A stretch of DNA of 64,000 nt from Eublepharis macularius (lineage: Eukaryota; Chordata; Lepidosauria; Squamata; Eublepharidae). Below are positions 2,782 to 52,500 of this stretch, piece by piece. Location: positions 16,450,001-16,514,000 of the forward strand of contig NC_072801.1 in NCBI RefSeq assembly GCF_028583425.1, given 5' to 3'. The translations under genes and the position numbers were made by a program. The notes beneath the pieces are model-generated. The model was not told the origin of the DNA and did no database searches. It saw nothing but the letters and a program-made list of their open reading frames with translations. Each line of letters opens with the position of its first letter. Position 1 is the stretch's first letter.

Positions 2782-3172
2782 TGTACTGTAACCACAGCTT
2801 AGAAAGCCTCTGTATCTGTGTAGTCAGAACTATGTACTGTCCCTTTAACAATTGGTACTCATGGGAATCGTAGTCCCCCCTCCAACACAGAAGTTTATTG
2901 TAGGTCTTCCTGTTAAAGTGTAGTTTTAGGGTCCCGCTTCCTTTTTCTTTGTTCGGCAACTTACCCCCTCAAGCAAGGATGAAAAGGCTGTCATGAATTC
3001 GCCGCTAGTCTACGAATAAATCTAGACCAATAAAGATGTACCTAGCTTCTGACTGAACCATGTCTTGTTTACTGGCTCCAACTGTAAGTAAGGACTCCCT
3101 TAAAAACTGGGTTGAAAGAGGCGCGTTGAACTACCTGGGAGTCAGTCCCTCCATTCAGCTGCTCTCAGAATA
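2782..3172 (+). repeat. 5' LTR of the BEL/Pao fossil
   Basis: Begins TGTACTGTAACC and ends CAGAATA. It holds AATAAA-type signals near 3015-3035. It matches the copy at 10429-10822 almost throughout. Confidence 0.92.
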
Positions 3173-4073
3173 GTAAATTCATAGCTGTAGCATGTCTTGC
3201 TCCTTCAAAGATCAAAAATTACACGTGTGCATGTTTGCATGAAGACGGGAAAAGACATCAAAATCTTAGCTCGGCTCCCTCTCCTTTTCGTTCCTGCGAA
3301 CTAAGGGACCAAAAAAACTCTCCTTGTCCTGTAAATGCTTCCATCACCTCCGCTGGCTTCTAATGAAACAAGCCATGCTGAGGGAAGACTTCTTCCAGTA
3401 ACTAGAGTTAAATGAGAAAATTTGCCTGCATGCCTTATTCCAAGCAAAGGAAATGTTTTTATGTCTCAGCTTGTCGTTTGTGATTTAAGTGCTTCTTAAC
3501 TTAAAGAGGATGAGAGCCCCGGAGCCGATCAGCTCTCTCCCTCAGCTTTGAAAGTACCTCATGCCTTTGAATTGCAAAACAGCTTTAACCGCTAGCTTAT
3601 TGCTCTAAGAAACTCTGCTTCATGCCAGCCTGCTCTTGTAACCAAGCGCGCCTCCTCCACACCCCCAACTGCAAAGCACGCAAAGGGATTCAAACTCTGA
3701 AAGGCACAGGCGTTTAAAAACCATCTCCTGAATCCAGCCCTAAGCTGGGAAGAGTTGCTACCCGCCACAGCTCCTCCCCACAGCTCCCTGAACTGCAAAG
3801 CTGCCCCGGGGAACCAGAAGAGGCGTCCATCATAAGAAGAGTAGGCACGGCTAAGGAGCACACCCGACCCCTAGTGGTCACTTATAGTACCTACAACTGA
3901 ATTCTCATAAAGCTTACTCGCTGCGCCCCCGGTGGCCAACGTTGGAAGTGCAGCCAACATTTCTGTAAGCTATACAGAAGCCACGTGCTTGCACTACCAC
4001 AACAGTGCCACCGCAACAGCGCCATCCTAGTGGTCTGAAGTAGTACTGCAGCTTCACGCATTTTTTTGCCACA

Positions 4074-6941
4074 ATGGAAACTCCTGTGGGGAATCCGGCA
4101 GGTGAAAGGGATATCACGGATCCAGCCAACACACCCACTACGCCTTCCAATGGCAACAATGAAGCTGAGCCCAAACATCCACCACGGAAAAGAGCACTGC
4201 CACCCAAGATGCGCGATTTGTTATCCGCCAAGAAAGCAGAAAGGCTCAAGGAGTCTGAAAAACATTGGATACGGATACAAGAATGTCTGTGCAAACTGGA
4301 TAAGGTATCTGATGTGGACGATCTGCATGATTTGGGAGGACTTCTGGCAAGCCAGTTCGTGCACTGGAAGACTCATATGGACCGTGTGCGTAGCATCTTG
4401 GATCAGCTGGACACAGATGAAGCATTGGCTGAACAGCAACACCTTCAGGAGGTGAATGACGCAAAGGAAAAGCTCGTTGATGATGCCATGCACAATTGGG
4501 ATAGGTGCATCAAGGAAGAGACGGCAAAACTCCTTAGTTCCACCAGTGGTGAACCCCTTTCTAAAGCCGGTTCTTCCCGGAAGTCCAGCCATCCATCCTC
4601 CACAACTTCATCATCCAAGCACAGTAAATCAGCCTCAAAACGCAGCAGCGGTTCTCGTCGGTCTACTAAGTCCTTGCTCGCCTTGGAGGTAGCCAAAGCA
4701 AAAGCAGAAGCTGCTGCGGCAGCCAAGAGGGCTGAATTTGCCAAGAAGGAAGAAGACCTGATGAAGGAAGCTGCCAACAGGGAAGTTCAGCTACGGGCAC
4801 TCCGAAAAGAAGCAGAAGCAGCAGAGTTACGTGCCAAGGCGAAGGCCCTAGACGATGGCCTCCAGGATTTGCATTCAGATCACAGCCTACCCAAGCTGGA
4901 GGATCTGGATCCAACTCAACGGGTACTGACCAATGTAGACGAACAAAGAGCCTTCACGAAAAGCCTCGCCGCACTAGTGCTTGACCCCATAGCTCCGGAG
5001 TTCAAAGCAGCAGAGCCTACCCAGCCTATGCCTTCCGTGCAAGCCCAGACCTCGCCTGTGCTTGTGGAACCCCTGTATACTCCCCCAGTTCCAGTCATCG
5101 TCCGAACTTTGGCTGCACCTGCGGAGCCTCTGTACACCCCGGATTCAGGCATTCTGCCCTGGGCTCCAGCAGCTATTGCTGTGCCTCGGTTGCCTCAGCC
5201 ATCTGCTCCTGGCAGTCCAGCTTCGCAGCCCACTGCTCTTGTTCTTATGCCTGTGTATGCATCTCGGTGGACAAAGTGGGACCTCGCCGAAAGAGGCATG
5301 CAGAAGTTTTCTGACCGCCCAGAGGACTACTTGCTTTGGAAATCGCAGTTCCGTGACGCTACTAAAGACATGGGATTAAGTGCAGTGGAGGAACTCACAC
5401 TTTTAGCTGCATGGCTGGGACCTGAGTCTGCAGCCCAGGTGGACCGCATTCATGCAGCTAATGTCGCGGATCCTGAAACAGCCTTGCCACAAGCGTGGGA
5501 CCGGCTTGACAAACGTTATGGTGACTCATCAGAGCTTGAGACCTTGCTCATGAGGCGCCTGAATAAGTTTCCCAGGATACCCATCAATGAACCACGTAAA
5601 CTTTGGGACTTGGCCGATCTTCTTACTGAGTTGCAGGCTTTTAAGAAGAACCCAGCACTACCAGGGTTGGCTTGCCTCGATCTGCACTACACGCAGAAGA
5701 GCATCACAGAGAAACTGCCAGGCCCACTTCAAGATAAGTGGGGCGACACGGTGAGCTCCTACAAATGTGCACATCAGGGAGCATACCCTCCTTTCTCGTA
5801 CCTCGTGAGTTTCATTACCTGGCTGGTGGAGACACGTAATGATTCCCAATGTGGATATTCCACGTGCCCCAATGAACCTCGTGATGAGAAGATGCCTTCT
5901 CAGGACACCAGGACCATGTCTTCACGGGATACCAGGCCCAAGCCTCCACGGGATGCCACAGCCAAGACAACTGCTTCAGGGCTAAAGACAGGGGTCTCCA
6001 TGACTCCAGCTGAAGCCACCATGAGTAAACCATCAGCATTGAAGTTGCCAGCACAGCCATCAGCACAGAAGTCGCCAGCGCGACCTACATATTTCTGTCC
6101 ACTCCACATGGATGGACACTCTGCAAATAGGTGCTCACTTTTCAGAAAGCTGCCATTACTAGCGAGGAAGGTTCTGATCTCGGAGTTCAAGATGTGTTCC
6201 CGTTGTTGCCAATCTCGAGAACATGCATCAACTGATTGCAAGACCCACATAAAATGCTACGAGTGCAGCAGTGACACACATTCAACTGCCATGCATGTGG
6301 ATGCCACGCCGACACAGCCAGTTGTGCCTGACGACCCTGCCTCCCAAGGGGAGAAGCCTGTTGCGGTCCACTGCACTCAAGTCTGGGGCATTGGGAACAG
6401 CAACCGGTCCTGCCATCAGATATGTCTCGCCAAAGTCTTTCCTGCTGGCCAACCCGAACAGGCCATCAAGATGTACATCATCCTAGATAGCCACAGTAAC
6501 CAGTCCCTGGTCGACCCAATGTTCTTTGCGCTCTTCAACATACCAGAGGATGAACTGCCATACACCCTCAGAACGTGCGCTGGGGTCCAGCGCACGGCTG
6601 GGAGGAGAGCCGCCGGGTTCCAAATTGAATCTCTCGACGGCAGTATCCAGTTCTCTCTACCTCCACTGTTGGAATGCGACGCCTTGCCAGATGATCGCGA
6701 CCAGATTCCAACACCAGACGTAGCGCTCTACCATCCTCACCTACAACCAATAGCAGATCACCTTCCTGCCCTGGATCCAGATGCACAAATCTTGCTTCTG
6801 CTAGGGATAGACATCTCCGATCTGCTAGTTTGCCATGAGGTGATCGTTGGGCCTCCTGGCACTCCACATGCCCAGAGGTACGACCTAGGATGGGTCGTAG
6901 TGGGGAATGTGTGTGTAGATCGCTTGCAGATGCCAAACTAG
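4074..6941 (+). mobile_element. gag-protease region of the BEL/Pao fossil
   Basis: One frame of about 955 codons. The N-terminal third is charged and alanine-rich, with a long coiled-coil stretch (roughly residues 200-260). The middle (about residues 400-540) resembles the DUF1759 gag domain typical of BEL elements (WKSQFRDAT, then AWDRLDKRYGD). Cysteine/histidine-rich knuckle-like segments follow (about residues 675-745), then an aspartic-protease-like segment of the Pao A17 type near residues 795-890. In this family gag and pol products come from one transcript. Viewed here only as part of a fossil element. Confidence 0.88.
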
Positions 6942-10428: not shown

Positions 10429-10822
10429 TGTGCTGTAACCATAGCTTGGAAAGCCTCTGTATCTGTGTAGTCAGAACTATGTACTGTCCCTTTAACAATT
10501 GGTACTCATGGGAATTGTAGTCCCCCCTCCAACATAGAAGTATATTGTAGGTCTTCCTGTTAAAGTGCAGTTTTAGGGTCCCTCTTCCTTTTTCTTTGTT
10601 CGGCAACTTACCCCCTCAAGCAAGGATGAAAAGGCTATCATGAATTCACCGCTAGTCTACGAAAAAATCTAGACCAATAAAGATGTACCTAGCTTCTGAC
10701 TGAACCATGTCTTGTTTACTGGCTCCAACTGTAAGTAAGGATTCCTTTAAAATCTGGGTTGAAAGAGGCAGCGCGTTGAACTACCTGGGAGTCAGCCCCT
10801 CCTTTCAGCTGCTCCCAGAATA
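10429..10822 (+). repeat. 3' LTR of the BEL/Pao fossil
   Basis: Begins TGTGCTGTAACC just after a purine tract and ends CAGAATA, followed at once by the second GTCCC duplication. Confidence 0.92.
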
Positions 10823-11085
10823 GTCCCTTTACCAGAGGCCTGAGAGGCAAAGAAGGGACTCTTTCCAGCATACTGCTGGAGCAGCTCAGCACCCGAGCTG
10901 CAACCAGGCAAGGCCACTGCCCAGTCCTTGCTTTTCTGCAGATTCACAAGGTGGCCCCAGGTGAGCCTCAGGCTCAGCCCCCCCCCTCCCCCAGGAGATA
11001 ACAGAGAATAGCATTGGTCTACCTTGCAGGGCTGCTGTAAGCATAACAATGGGGGGAAGAACACCTTAAGTACTATTATTGCAGC

Positions 11086-11244
11086 ACTAAACCAGATCAG
11101 TCTCTCAGTTTTGACACTGAGAGATCCCTGTCTTTTGGTGCTACACCTCTGAAGATGCCAGTCACAGCTGCTGGCGAAACGTCAGGAACTACAATGCCAA
11201 GACCACGGCGATACAGCCCGGAAAATCCACAACTAAACCAGATC
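11086..11244 (+). mobile_element. Short Penelope-like retroposed unit with 13-bp target-site duplication
   Basis: A 133-bp unit (11099-11231) is flanked by a perfect 13-bp direct repeat ACTAAACCAGATC (11086-11098 and 11232-11244). It opens with a perfect 9-bp hairpin (TCTCTCAGT 11101-11109, ACTGAGAGA 11116-11124) and then a hammerhead ribozyme fold. The sequence resembles a repeat common in reptile genomes, and hammerhead motifs are known from the terminal repeats of Penelope-like retroelements; assignment to that group is inference. No reverse transcriptase or GIY-YIG endonuclease is present, so the unit must have been mobilised in trans or be an extreme truncation. Confidence 0.75.
11133..11202 (+). 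ncRNA. Hammerhead ribozyme motif (type I-like, minimal stem III)
   Basis: The conserved core is present: CTGAAGA (11149-11155, fits CUGANGA), stem II GCCAG/CTGGC (11157-11161 with 11171-11175, plus a possible T-G wobble pair), GAAA (11176-11179), and the cleavage triplet GTC (11181-11183, predicted cut after 11183). Stem I is three inner pairs (CCT 11146-11148 with AGG 11184-11186), then an internal loop, then an outer helix (11133-11138 with 11197-11202). Stem III is only A-C/G-T across GAAACGTC, with no room for a hairpin loop, so activity would probably need dimerisation, as proposed for other retroelement hammerheads. Confidence 0.78.
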
Positions 11245-12736
11245 CTTTGCAGTTCTGCCATTCAAGAGGAAGCACTGCGGGCCAGCTCCAATGTCGACAA
11301 GCCCCCACATATCTGGGAGGGCTACCCTGCTTCCACCGAGGGAACTCCCTTCCTGTGAGGCTGGAGGGCAGACTGCAGACCCAACTTAGACCAGCTTAAA
11401 TAAATGACGCACCAGCTTGTCGCTCAGCTCCTCTTGGCTTAAACTGAGGCACTTCAATAGTTCCTCCCCAGCCTTTTAAGCCTCTTATTTTTCCAAATTT
11501 TTCAGACACCTGCCTGAGGAGAGGCACTTCCCTTGATATTTTGGCCCACCCACAGGCTCCTGTCTTCAACCACCCTTCTGTTCTTCTCTCTTGAATTCTT
11601 AACTGGGCTGTCTTTTGACCAATTCTAACAGCTTTATGAGTTGTTTAACCCTCTCTTTAATTCCTCATATTTCTACAGTGCCTGAGTCTCTACTTCACTG
11701 TCACTGCTCATCGTTTCAGCACCTCCCTCTTTCTCTGCAGCTCGCCTTATTTTTGCAGGTGGCACTTTGGTGATGACTCTTTACACCTTTTAGGGCTGCC
11801 AGGTCCCTCGTCCTTAAAACCAGGGGTAGGGGGGGCACACTCCTGGAGTCCATACCTTGCCATTTATTCTCACACAGACCTTCAAGGAAAGGGTATGTAG
11901 CTGGGGTCCCCACACCTCTGCCTGGGGAGGAAGATTGAGTGGGATTCCTCTTGACCCTTGGGGTGCCACATGCACGATATTTGCTGCCTAGTGTTCTCTT
12001 TCTAGCAGCTGGTATATATAAGGGGCAAGGGCTCATTAGATTCGAATGCAACCGCTGTAGAAGTGAACAACCAAATCCTCTGACCCTTTCCCGGTACATC
12101 AAGGCTCTTGGAAATCCCAGAAGATAAAGGCATCAGTTCCACTTACACACAACATTTCTCAACTCCAGAAAAAAAGAAAGAGGATTGTTAGCAATGATCC
12201 CAGTCTGGAAAGGAATACAACACTGAAGGGGAGGAAAGAAGGGGTGTCTGTTTATAGACCCCCAATAATTTCCTGTAGTATTTAAAGTTGACATCGAAGG
12301 CTCTGAAATGGCCTCTATGGGCCTTGTCTGTAAAATTATACAACAGTGGGGCAGGACTTAATGGTCAGCTTCTTTGAGTCTTACTCTTTGCCTAAAGTAC
12401 CAGGCTATGCTTCCTCTTAAGCCTGTGAGTTTCCTAGGCATTTTGACTGTGAGTGAACCAAGCTGCACATAATTGCTTGAGGGGGAGGTCACAACAGAGG
12501 CAACACACACAATTTGAGTACAGAAGGCTACATATGTAGCATCTTTCTCTCTGTCCCCAGGGTCTTAAGTAAGAAATTACTGGGACCTACTTAATCTCAA
12601 ATGGGGAATAGGCCCTGGAGAGGAACAGCGGAACACCCATTCACTGACTAGAAATTACTAGCCTGTGTTACATACTAAACAGGAAACACAAAGATCTGTT
12701 TGTTGGCATGTGACTTGAGCAGGGTTTTGGCAATAA
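11245..12736. other. Gene-free spacer
   Basis: No exon, repeat family or RNA gene that I can support. Frames on both strands are short and lack family resemblance. Confidence 0.4.
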
Positions 12737-34100: not shown

Positions 34101-37100
34101 CTCTAGATCTAGCAGGAATGCTGCAGCGACAGGACAAGCCCAAATGTTAATTAATTTCAAGCATTTCCAAAGACCTGGGAAATTGGGATGAGAGTGCTGG
34201 AGTCCACTTGCAATTGGAAAACCACAGTGCCTTCAGATATTTTGGGAACATTTCAGCAAAGACAAATAATTAATTGACCCTTGCACGGTTACAGTTAAAC
34301 TTTCATCCTGGATGCCGAAGCACACTTGCTGGAAGTAAGTTTCATTGAAATCCGGTGGGATATCTGCCAAGTAAATGTGCTGGGATCGAGGAAGCGTTTT
34401 TGCTTTCATTTTGTTTTTAGCACACTCCAGGAATCAAGACAGCATTTGATGAGTTCTTCCCTGCCTAGCTTTGGAAAATCGATCTGTAATTGGCTTTTCT
34501 AAGCAGCAAAACAGAGAACTGGCACTTTTAAACAAGAAAAAGATTTATCGTGGCGGATGGGCAAGGGTAGAGCCCACTCCATTAGAGGTGCCCCGCAAGG
34601 CTGTGGGTTGCTGGTCTACTCTGAACTAAGTCCCGTTTTATTCAGTGAGGCTTACTTCCAAGAAAATGTTCTTAGGCTGGCACTGGTAGACCTGCATGCA
34701 CCCAGAGGGTCGCAGCTGCTGGATCCCCTCAGAAATGAGTTTGCGAGCTCAAGGGTTACGGCTGCTGAGGCTGACAAAGTTGTGAAATAAGCCACGGTTT
34801 GTGTAGCCCATCAGAAAGCTGGACTGGCAAAGCTCACTTGCCGCGCTGTCTGCACCAGAGCAAGAAACTAACTTCAGGCTGTCAGTCTGGCTCGGTGTTT
34901 TAGCCAGGGGAAGGGTCACACTGAGCCAACGAGGAAAGCAGACAAAGCAAAATAAATTAAATGGGCCGTTGAAATTGGCGACGAATTGTGGTCCTACCGG
35001 TCCGGCATCCTTTTTTGTATAGTGGCAGCCCAGATGACCCCAGGAACGCCTATAAGCAGAGGCAGGAGGCCGAGGACTTCCCCTGATGTCTCCCCTCAGC
35101 GTGTTATTTGAAAGGTTACTGCCTCTGAACATGGAGGTTCCATTTAGCGATCACAGCTAATGGTCACTGATAGACCTCTCCCTCTCAGAATCTGCCTCCT
35201 TCCCTATTAAAGCCAACTACATGAACATCATCTCGAGTAAACAAGTTCCACGGGTTAATTACTCTTTGAGTGAAGGAATACTTCCTTTATTGTGTTCTCA
35301 ATTTACTGCCTACCAGTAGGAAGAGGGAGGAAAGACGGCCTCTGCAGGTCAAGCTGTGCTCACAACCTGAGTTCAATCCTGGCAGAAGATGGGTTCAAGT
35401 AGCCGGCTCAAGGTTGACTCAGCCTTCCATCCTTCCGAGGTTGGTAAAATGAGTACCCAGTTTCCTGGGGGTAAAGTGTAGATGACTGGGGAAGGCAATG
35501 GCAAACCACCCTGTAAAAAGTCTGCCAAGAAAATGTCGTGAGGCGACATCCCCCCATGGGTCAGTAATGGCTCGGTGCTTACACAGGGGACTACCTTTAC
35601 CTTTAATATTATAGAATACTCCAGTTTATTTCATGTGATGGATTTCTGTGTGCTTTGAATGTGCCCCACTGGATTACTGCAAGAAAGTGGCTAATTTTGA
35701 CCAAGCACCAGGATGAATGCCGGGGCAGATCAGGGACACTGGCGCAATTAAAACAATCCGTTTTTGTCAGGGCTTTTTTTCTGGGAAAAGAGGGGGCGGA
35801 ACTCAGTGGGTTGCCCTAGGTGAAAATGGTCCCTGAGCGCCGCGGATCTCAACTCCCCTCTGTCTGGAGATCAGGGGGCGGGGCCACCAGCCATGTGACC
35901 ATTTTCAAGAGGTTCCGGAAAGCAACCAATACTTGAGTTTAAGCAGCTTTGTAATTTGAAGTCAGGTAGCAAGTGGGTGCCTGCCATGTTGGACATTTCA
36001 GATTCACATATTAATTCATGGAGTAGTCGTCTCTGTGCCTTCATTGTCCACCTGTACAACGGAATAAAATAGGAACAATAAAAGTCCCACAGGGAGTAAC
36101 AGAATAAGGATTGTAAAGTGCTCTGTACTTTATGTGGGACCCTGACTTGGATAGCCCAGGTGAGCCTGATCTCATTAGATCTCAGAAGCTAAGTAGGGTC
36201 GGCCTTGGTTAGTAATTGGATGGGAGACCTCCAGCAAAGACTCAGGGTTGCAGAAGCAGGCAATGTCAAACCACCTTTGTTAGTCTCTTGCCATGAAAAC
36301 CCCACTGGGGGAGGGGGGGCACCATAAGTCAGCTATGACTTGGGGGCACTCTCCACCACCACTTTATGTGGGAGTGCAGGTTTGTTCCCCACCCCCAAGT
36401 CTGCTTTTCAGAATTCGTGGTCTCCTTGTATGTGCTTCTTATCCCAAACAGGCATGTCTTGTAATATGTTTCTAGCCCATACTTCAATCTGGACAGGTTC
36501 AGACATAGGCTGGCCACTTCTGTGGACACCTGAAGCATGTACAGAATGCCTTTTCCTGGTGAGGAAATTGTTATTTGGAATCAAGTTCAACCCCCTCTTT
36601 TGGTTTTAGAAACTAATCCAGGTTCGCTTCAAATCCAGTTCACCACAGGCAGGTGCCCATTGTGGCCTCTGGGTGATCTCATTTTGCCCCTCTTCTTCTT
36701 TCCAGAGAGGGGCAACCTGGCTGGAGTACAGCACATCATCCTGGTGCTCTCGGGGAAAGGGGGAGTGGGGAAGAGCACCATCTCCACTGAGCTAGCACTG
36801 GCTTTGCGGCACACTGGGAAAAAGGTATGTATCCTCGGGGTGCCACAGTTATTTCTGAGCTTTTTATCCTGTGTTCTGCCCTTTCAGCCTTCAAAGACAT
36901 TAACAAATTCATTTTTTAAAAAAATGGTAGGGCCCAACCAGCTTTTCTGCTGGTGAAAAAGGCAGGAAGGAATGCCTTTTGACCGCTGCACTGGGGATTG
37001 AGGGACCTGCGTGGATAAAAGGCAGGGAGGGGGAGGGGGCCTGTAGTAAAGAGAGAAATATTCGCTGAAATTGAGTGGGAAAGCTGGCTGGATCCAAACT

Positions 37101-49517: not shown

Positions 49518-52500
49518 TTAGCAATCAACAAAATGGCCTTCAGGGATATCTCGCAGGTCCATCCCTGTCACATCTGTCGGGGTAAGGCAGGTGACATTGT
49601 TGTAGGAGTACACAGGAGTGTCCCCTTCTGTAATGGACTGTGTGTACCGCAGGACCACACTGGGGTTTTGCAAAGCAAAGTCTCGCAGTCCTTTCAGTGA
49701 GCAATTGCATTCCCATTTGTTCCTTGCCAGCCACAACTGAGCCAGTTTTGGGGAAGGGCCCAGCCAATCCACTGAGAAGGTTCTGAGCGAATTGTTCTTG
49801 ACATTCAGATACTCCAGTTTTGATACGGGTGCAAGGACATCCCTGTCCAGCATCTCCAAGTAATTGTTGGAGAGGTCGAGCCAGGAGAGGCGCCGAAGCG
49901 GGGTGAAGGCTTCGGGAGAGATTTCCAACAGCTGGTTGGAGGACAAGAGAAGATACTCTAGGTTCCCAAGGCCTGCCAACTGATTGGGGAGAAGCCTGGT
50001 CAGCCGGTTGTTCTTCAGATCCAGATCGAGAAGTTCACGCAAATCACTTAGGCCGTGATCCTCAATCATGGTGATTGTGTTGTGCCGCAAGAAAAGTCTC
50101 CGGAGGCTGGAGAGGTTTGAAAACATTTGTGGCCTGATCCTGCTGAGGCAGCTGTTCTCCAGGTGAAGGCTGTGCAACTGGCTGAGACCTCTGAAAGCAA
50201 AATCTGGGAGGCCCTTCAGGCAATTGCCCGACAGATTCATCACAGCCACGTTGGTGAGGCCCAGGAATGCCCCAGCCCTGATCTCTTGAATCTGGTTGTC
50301 ATTAAGTGCAAGGACTTCGAGTTGACTAAGTTTTTCAAAACCCTTTTCCATCAGGCTCCTGATCCTGTTATTCCCCAGCTGCAGCTCTTCCAAGAACTGA
50401 AGGTCTCTGAAAGTCCTCGGCCTCAGACCAGTGATCGAGTTGCTCGAGAGGCGCAAAACATGCAGGGTTGAGAGGCCAAAGAACGTGTCCTCAAACAGTG
50501 TGGTCAAACGGTTATGGGACAGGTCCAACCACCGCAGAGACTTCATGCCCACAAAGGCACGAGGGGCGATGGCGTTGATTTGGTTGTGGTGCAGGTACAG
50601 CTTCTGCAGCTTCTGCAGCTTCGTGAAAATGTTGCCTTTGATGCCCTTGAGGGTGTTCCCACTCAAATCCAGTTCTCTCAGCTCGGTGAGGCTGTAGAAC
50701 AGCTGGTGCTGCAAGTAGTGCAGTTTGTTGCCTGCCAGGACCAGCTCCCGCAGGTTGGGAAGGTCGTGGAACACTCTGTCTGGTAGGACCACCAGAGAGT
50801 TCCAGCCGAGGTTCAAATACCAGAGGTTGGATAGTCCAGCAAACACACCTTCTTCGATCTTGCTGAACTGGTTGTTGTTGAGATTTAAGGAGGCCAGATT
50901 CTGCAAGTGGAGGAAAATGTTGGGTGTCAAAGATTTCAAACGGTTGCGCTCCAGGAATAAGGAGTACAGCCCTTCCAAGCCATGGAAGGCGTGCTGTTCG
51001 ATGAGCATCAACTGGCTGCCTTGGAGATTGAGGAATTCCAGGTTGGAAAGGTTTCGGAAGGTCAGGGCCGGCAACAAGGTGAAATTATTGCCATCCAACC
51101 AAAACAGCCTCACGGCCCTGGGTACATCTTCAGGGAGGCTTGTGAGGTTCCGAGAACTGCAGTAGATGCTCAACTCATCGTTGCAATCGTCGTAGCTGCA
51201 AAAGCATGGGCCAGGGCACTTCTGGCTTTCAGCAGCAGTGTGTTCTTTAGCAGCTCCTGCTTCAAGGGTCCGGGACCCTGCCGCCAGAGCCCAGATGAGA
51301 GCCATCACCAGGGCTGCTTCTGTTGGACAAAGGAACAAAACAGACAGCGATAAAACTGGCTAAAAAACGATAGTGAGGTAAGAGTGCAAAGGTGTATAAA
51401 GTCTGGACATTTGCACGGTTGCGCCGCATGGTCACGCAGAGTTCATATGATTTCAACTTCTGTTAACAAAAAAAAAGAGTTTCTAGCCCTCGATTGCAAT
51501 AGAAAGCTGCCATAGGTCAGACTTCTAAATAATATGGGTACTCCAAAACGCATCGGTGATGTTTTGGATCTGGGTTGCAGGATTTTAACATTATGACTGT
51601 GTCACGCAGTGGCTCGTGAACAAGTAACCACACCTAACCTCTACCCCAAGAATACTTTCTGCAAATACACCCCATTAAACAGTACACCTCCTTCAAATTG
51701 CTTTTTAAATCTCTCTCAGAACCTCTTCTAGGGTCCTCAAGACAGTCCTCCACTAATTCCCCAGAGAAAAGCAGACAAAACATTACTGATGGAAGATTTG
51801 TCTTGTGTTGTCCAGTGTAAACACAGACAAAAGGGACTATATGAAAGCTAACATCTCTCAACTGCCCTGAAAAATGGAGGATTTAGTGACAGCGGGCTTG
51901 AACTGAAATAAAGACGTTCTCCAGGGAGAAGCAATTTAGCAATGTGGGTAGAAATTACAGGGCATTTCTTTTATCTAGATGAAATCATATGAACACATTC
52001 TTTAATAGTCTGTGAAACTACATGGAACTCACTGCTTGAACTGCAATGCCTCCATTATCAACATCAAAAACTCTTTGGCAGGGGCTGGGAGTTGGTGGGA
52101 TGGGTCTCCTTTTTCAATCCCACCTTGCGTGGCAGAGTATAGAATGTGTCCAGGCTCACTTGAGAGTCTCCTGGTAAGTGGGGCATGAGAGGTTCCCCAC
52201 AACGGCTCGCAAACTGCCCATTTCTTAAACATGGCCCTTTTACCGGAATGGCTGCCATCCCAAACCTAATAGGTACACTTGGAGAAGATCAGCCACAATT
52301 TCACATGCACGGACACTGCTATAAATACACAAGTGTGTGCATAGAAATCTTTACGTCCCCACTTCCCACAGCTGTAAAATGCGTTTAATGCCTAAATAGG
52401 AAAGAAGGCAGTCTGCTGTCTTCGGCCTGGTCTATGTGTGCGGCAGAATGAGAAGGTACATGGACTGTACTACGAATAATTTTTTTTAGTGGAAAATCTG

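Follow-up and report, generated by a model that had tools for sequence, protein, structure and literature searches.

A short hammerhead-bearing insertion in a gecko genome as a by-product of an abundant Penelope-like element

The 133-bp unit with a hammerhead motif found in the 64-kb stretch of gecko DNA analysed here (the window) represents a short insertion made as a by-product of a Penelope-like element (PLE) that is very abundant, and not a new mini-element. The best explanation of its form, to which a probability of roughly 0.9 can be given, is that a PLE mRNA would have been copied from an internal start (site 1), that the cDNA tip would have folded back into a short stub, and that in related insertions both ends of the target would have been primed. 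The relatives of the unit suggest that insertion in this family uses two copying start points, one per DNA end. Inverted pLTRs with a one-sided tail have already been published; a near-strict rule of one short and one long end per inverted insertion was not found stated in the open-access papers searched, a set that many subscription papers fall outside.

The unit and its source element

As the initial annotation had read from the letters, the 133 bp lie between exact 13-bp target duplications, the direct repeat ACTAAACCAGATC occurring on both sides with no mismatch (Table 1). In the following, unit positions 1-133 correspond to window positions 11099-11231, which places the predicted ribozyme cut at unit 85/86.

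Table 1. Coordinates of the features of the unit and its borders in the window
Feature	Window positions	Strand	Basis
Target-site duplication, left copy (ACTAAACCAGATC)	11086..11098	+	Exact 13-bp repeat
Inverted fold-back stub (AGTCTCTCAG)	11099..11108	-	8/10 nt antisense to 11117-11124
PLE leader (end of pLTR), probable transcription start to ATG	11109..11154	+	TATA-like box; homology to L053
Minimal type I hammerhead without helix III; predicted cut after 11183	11146..11186	+	Core letters; Anolis Poseidon alignment
PLE ORF, first 77 nt (MPVTAAGETSGTTMPRPRRYSPENP...)	11155..11231	+	ATG at 11155, same peptide as intact ORF
Reverse-transcription start site 1 (short end, CCACAAC)	11227..11233	+	Recurrent short ends; sites described in part of PMC11167929
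Target-site duplication, right copy	11232..11244	+	Exact 13-bp repeat

The view of the unit as free-standing and non-coding did not hold, since unit 14-133 is the ORF start of an autonomous PLE, including its first 25 codons. This segment is 95.0-95.8% identical to intact PLEs with open ORFs of 863 aa in three fetched stretches (L051-L053), and it matches across L031-L050 at 93-97.5% identity. The intact ORF starts MPATAAGETSGTTMPRPRQYSPENPQQP and contains a reverse transcriptase domain (RVT_1, E 1.4e-12, above the Pfam cut-off) together with a weak T5orf172 endonuclease match (E 0.0067, below the cut-off), and its C-terminus reads GVYRI...YIGTT...R..EH; this motif and the T5orf172 clan would make the weakly recognised domain a candidate GIY-YIG endonuclease. 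In L051, tandem copies of the PLE lie 2669 bp apart and are 99.9-100% identical. The identity to these sources and their RVT_1 domain bear out the earlier recognition of a retrotransposed Penelope-type piece with a target duplication. When the N-terminus of Anolis Poseidon (78 aa) was used as a query against the 2.24-Gb genome, the 150 places scored among 25,495 candidates showed 64-68% identity, many of them with open frames of 884 codons, and the unit itself aligns with the Anolis Poseidon junction over the ribozyme and the adjoining downstream block. A 36-mer from the unit region has 27,701 exact genomic sites, and its control none. Both the pLTR/ORF-start identity and the source coding for a reverse transcriptase place the unit in the Penelope/Poseidon clade as a solo pLTR copy; tandem and inverted pLTRs with target duplications are present elsewhere in the genome, and the window copy is a single-armed, solo insertion.

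At its 5' end the unit opens with 10 nt that repeat the leader in inverted form (TCTCTCAG against CTGAGAGA) and make up the 5' arm of the hairpin noted earlier. They are missing in the copies that extend upstream, which read there either CTCCACAG followed by TTTGACAC or CCACACTG followed by TGACAC. The hairpin is a real fold (z-score of the whole unit -2.17, with 8/200 shuffles equally stable) whose 5' arm is foreign to the element; 2 nt of the stub (AG) are not accounted for by a fold-back origin.

Elsewhere in the window, two direct repeats of ~395 bp (2782-3174 and 10429-10824), 95% identical and 7.6 kb apart, enclose a 955-codon ORF (4074-6941) with no Pfam match at E 0.001, and together they look like an LTR retroelement. 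A 5S rRNA-like segment above the Rfam gathering score (36138-36256) is possibly a pseudogene or a 5S-derived SINE, and a 606-codon ORF on the minus strand (49518-51338) carries many leucine-rich repeats according to Pfam.

The hammerhead motif

The core elements of the hammerhead are present in the right order, as previously described: CTGAAGA (11149-11155), GAAA (11176-11179) and GTC (11181-11183), with stem II formed by GCCAG and CTGGC (11157-11161/11171-11175) and stem I by CCT and AGG (11146-11148/11184-11186). One extra U (11156) separates the core from stem II, as it does in Anolis PAc; helix III is impossible in cis, and two copies could pair through an ACGU palindrome only. Both stems I and II and the conserved core of hammerhead ribozymes (CUGANGA...GAAA...UH) are present. 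Within 11139-11198, the hammerhead pairing reaches -8.4 kcal/mol as compared to -13.3 kcal/mol for the MFE structure, so that the hammerhead is not the favoured fold in isolation.

The covariance-model check proposed with the initial annotation gave no support: the Rfam hammerhead models found no match in the 64-kb window at the gathering score, or within 10900-11400 at E values up to 10. The same models also miss the matching segment of the intact PLE in L053, which makes this negative result weakly informative on minimal PLE-type motifs, and the absence of helix III from PLE hammerheads may lie behind both misses. A loose core pattern gave 177 matches in the window against 187 expected, and is uninformative because its spacing was guessed and the unit itself fits it with 3 mismatches; in viral and prokaryote collections, scans by pattern gave 0 matches. 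The primary paper on minimal PLE hammerheads is that of Cervera and de la Pena (2014). Short tandem PLE derivatives with one hammerhead per repeat also occur (L043:1462-2195, with a 286-bp period, and L031, L039, L042 and L033), the jump point lying near element position 293-302 in L031, L039, L042 and L043, and at 358 in L033.

Ends of the copies and head-to-head insertions

Two 3' ends recur among the copies, a short one (...CCACAACAACCA) and a long one reaching ~30 nt further (...GCCTTCGACAATAT), and all 53 arms fetched by position (52 of the first 100 listed 36-mer sites) stop at one or the other. The 3' border of the window copy is site 1, whose last AC (11232-11233) is common to the target duplication, and the short ends of other copies fall at ref 135-148. 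Inner fragments may stop elsewhere, with 7/194 arms ending before unit 130. Among the similarity hits, 55/66 rows end at query positions 131-133, which is no evidence by itself because the query stops there, the evidence being in the flanks. The two recurrent ends fit the internal start sites of reverse transcription and the optional tail published for PLEs (PMC11167929, in the portion available); according to the same portion, reverse transcription of the Anolis PLE initiates internally in vitro, with two starts, and its protein cuts and extends both strands.

The 5' ends of the 32 arms of the positional sample are spread over unit 11-67. As only 15 of them begin at unit 11-18, 4 of these extending upstream, the 5' end is preferred rather than fixed. 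The clean borders claimed for the unit are supported on the 3' side only: in the copies measured, 3' ends recur at two sites and 5' ends vary. Upstream-extending copies carry, ~30 nt before TTTGACAC or TGACAC, the motif TATAAAT (5 of the 15 shown) or TACAAAT (8 of the 15), which makes it plausible that transcription starts at unit 11-14; by this TATA-like box, transcription would probably begin near 11109.

The arrangement of the copies was followed in 51 inverted insertions, 35 coming from similarity searches and 16 from position. The two similarity searches scored 40 of 1741 and 40 of 1669 candidates, and both are biased to window-like copies, the first query having included the stub. The first gave 30 loci, 20 of which were counted as dimers (leaving out L001, L008, L011, L012, L018, L019, L021, L026, L027 and L030), and the second gave 29 new loci, 15 of them counted, 10 repeating earlier places and four being non-dimers (L060, L063, L075 and L077). 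The positional sample comprises every -/+ pair under 400 bp apart among the first 100 of the 27,701 sites, with two duplicate place-pairs. The length of a duplication is the longest common stretch, in which 1-2 bases are possibly due to chance. In C1, the place-pairs L083/L084 and L087/L088 share insertion and flanks, and L111/L112 and L115/L117 have identical match coordinates, suggesting local or assembly duplication in all four cases.

Close neighbours are oriented head to head: among the first 100 listed sites, all 16 pairs less than 400 bp apart are -/+, and pairs within 1000 bp comprise 17 -/+, one +/- and one +/+. Opposite outer ends were found in 50 of the 51 inverted insertions (28 short/long and 22 long/short), the sole exception being L058, which is long/long and has no clear duplication. 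Counting unique insertions, the figure is 48 out of 49, and in the positional subset 16/16, or 14/14 once duplicates are removed. Perfect duplications of 10-15 bp flank 40 of the 51, all of these with opposite ends and 38 of them with 12-15 bp, while only 7 of 2550 swapped partners attain at least 10 bp. The same opposite ends are found in three additional or longer composites whose duplications measure 12-13 bp (L104/L105, L113/L114 and L107), and with 12-bp duplications in those of the 20 Poseidon-query loci whose outer ends were measured (L039, L042 and L043, plus L052, a wider fetch around L045/L046). Two further places carry no such duplication: the short arms of L099/L100 face the opposite way to head-to-head, with no duplication in common, and the facing short and long arms of L108/L109, ~420 bp apart and with no clear duplication, may be single pieces. 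Unpaired sites number 68; the 20 fetched comprise 17 that extend into longer copies, the dimer L107, and L108/L109. Unpaired copies show both ends (12 short and 7 long, repeats included and L107 left out), so that the rule of one short and one long end does not arise from the rarity of one of them.

Since short arms have no tail, they cannot template long arms, which need a start of their own. Moreover, in six of the 35 dimers (L014, L028, L064, L070, L071 and L073) the 5' reach of the short arm exceeds that of the long one by more than 40 nt, so that the short arm cannot have been copied from the long one by folding back; within these six, the duplications of L064, L070 and L071 are only 8, 8 and 9 bp, and the arms of L073 lie 233 bp apart. 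These data point to two separate cDNA starts in some inverted insertions. A further trait of L064, L070 and L071 is that their long arms are extremely short (43-61 nt), stopping at unit 115-130, just past site 1, where extension may have been halted by the second cDNA of the same RNA.

Alternative explanations, proposed pathway and known systems

The initial annotation had compared the unit to plant retrozymes. It is very improbable, though, that it is a discrete short retroposon of this non-autonomous kind, with a hairpin of its own, ends made by the ribozyme and PLE proteins acting in trans. The clean duplication and small size would suit such an element, other single pieces with 8-12 bp duplications exist (e.g. 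L012, L027 and L075), and a few mini-tandems with PLE hammerheads are known, such as the 286-bp repeats of L043. However, the sequence of the unit is the PLE's own ORF start, the 5' arm of the hairpin is lacking in upstream-extending copies, most of the unpaired sites fetched (the above 17/20) run into longer PLE copies, and the mini-tandem junction of L043 was found in one array only (2 sites, with at most 2 mismatches). Nor do the ends follow the ribozyme: the predicted cut falls within the unit, and none of the 36 partner outer arms (L002 supplying two), which give the fair count for the cut site, begins at unit 80-92. Ends of any kind fall there in 2 of 194 measured arms, neither exactly at 85/86; these two, an inner fragment of L024 ending at 87 and an arm of L043 beginning at 83, lie near the cut and count in favour of the retrozyme-like reading. 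Likewise, 0/102 outer arms start at unit 84-88, a count in which most arms were chosen by a cut-spanning query or the 36-mer and could not show such starts. Neither bounds cut by the ribozyme nor a direct tandem of hammerheads, as retrozymes have, was found for the unit: its ends fit reverse-transcription sites, the window holds one copy of the motif, and none of the 16 neighbour pairs under 400 bp is direct. Tested against the ends of the arms, the orientation of neighbours and the mini-tandems, a retrozyme reading was rejected. As the window copy reads across the cut, its template was uncut, in agreement with the part of PMC11167929 in which cleavage is dispensable for insertion of the Anolis PLE in vitro and its hammerhead cleaves only when its protein is present. 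From the earlier interpretation there remains a retroposed Penelope-type piece, and not the free-standing unit, the two clean borders, the ribozyme-set ends or the likeness to retrozymes.

Regarding the inverted relatives, a single self-priming cDNA copied back on itself, as proposed for rotifer Penelope in the accessible part of PMC3846280, would make a second initiation unneeded. Palindromic or zig-zag junctions speak for it, as do the window copy's own stub and the greater likeness between the two arms of an insertion than between shuffled partners (3.9 vs 5.0% in the 35 dimers and 1.3 vs 1.9% in a second comparison, each with 0/5000 shuffles), which is compatible with one RNA and also with two RNAs that share subfamily and age. 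This explanation nevertheless seems rather unlikely, because the tailless short-end cDNA cannot template a long arm and, in the six dimers with a further-reaching short arm, this arm cannot have been copied from the long one. A descent of all inverted dimers from a single dimeric master locus or a small number of them, with the pattern of ends fixed by inheritance, would explain how near-strict that pattern is, and can be given hardly any credit: the junctions vary between insertions, the arms are truncated differently, both orders are present, and 40 of the 51 have duplications at both outer ends.

Our preferred explanation, based on the PLE mRNA, would proceed as follows. The template would be an mRNA with its 5' end near 11109, on which reverse transcription would start inside the RNA, at site 1 (~77 nt past the ORF start), with the cut end of the target as primer. 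As the mRNA would start ~45 nt before the ORF, the cDNA could reach ~120 nt at most, and running only to the nearby 5' end of the RNA it would yield ~120 bp rather than the whole element, as judged from the ends. The cDNA tip would then fold back, be extended by ~8-10 nt and be joined to the other target end, producing the 5' hairpin, with the hammerhead carried along as an uncut passenger that does not set the ends. Short hammerhead pieces would thus need no separate retrozyme-like family, since a start so close to the 5' end of the mRNA makes the first-site product short. A full element would call for read-through RNA from a tandem copy, which fits the tandem arrays. In many relatives, priming seems to occur from both ends of the target, site 1 serving one of them and site 2, ~30 nt further, the other, and two initiations per event would yield two cDNAs meeting head to head within one duplication, mostly of 12-15 bp. 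We lean slightly towards a two-headed complex making each insertion, in which sites 1 and 2, flanking a stem-loop, would each be used once, one per target end, perhaps with a protein dimer holding a single RNA. If so, inverted pLTRs, a one-sided tail and a 12-15 bp duplication would be the normal product and no accident. The window unit itself is ordinary, and the family-wide short/long rule is the part worth following: a single genome offers the 36-mer sites by the thousands, intact sources, and insertion ends that record the start of reverse transcription per target end, so that the open question of how PLEs insert two strands becomes countable and testable.

The motif and the family can be compared with several known systems. 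PLE hammerheads lack helix III and sit in terminal repeats, as stated in the part of a review at hand (PMC6155905), and the window motif shares both the missing helix and the pLTR location, with no essential difference from that description. The closest likeness is to Poseidon_Ac (PAc) of Anolis carolinensis, for which the available portion of PMC11167929 describes a hammerhead straddling the ORF start, a core with an extra U, a downstream block with two reverse-transcription starts and tandem copies, all as in the gecko family, and both target strands cut and extended. The leader upstream of the hammerhead differs, the N-terminus is 64-68% identical over 77-78 aa, and neither inverted insertions nor one start site per target end is discussed in that portion. 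Animal non-LTR retrozymes, in the sections available of PMC7229834, are likewise short pieces with type I hammerheads, acting as dimers where helix III is short, but they form direct tandems giving RNA circles, whereas close neighbours in the gecko are inverted and their outer ends fit starts of reverse transcription. Finally, the Penelope of the rotifer Adineta vaga, as reported in the accessible part of PMC3846280, has inverted pLTRs, mostly head to head, with palindromic junctions and duplications of 8-10 bp; one of these pLTRs bears a 31-bp tail, and self-priming on an antisense template was the explanation proposed. Inverted pLTRs, palindromic junctions and the one-sided tail are thus common to both families; in the rotifer copies are few and the tail is termed optional, whereas in the gecko exactly one tail is present in 50 of 51 insertions and the duplications are mostly of 12-15 bp.
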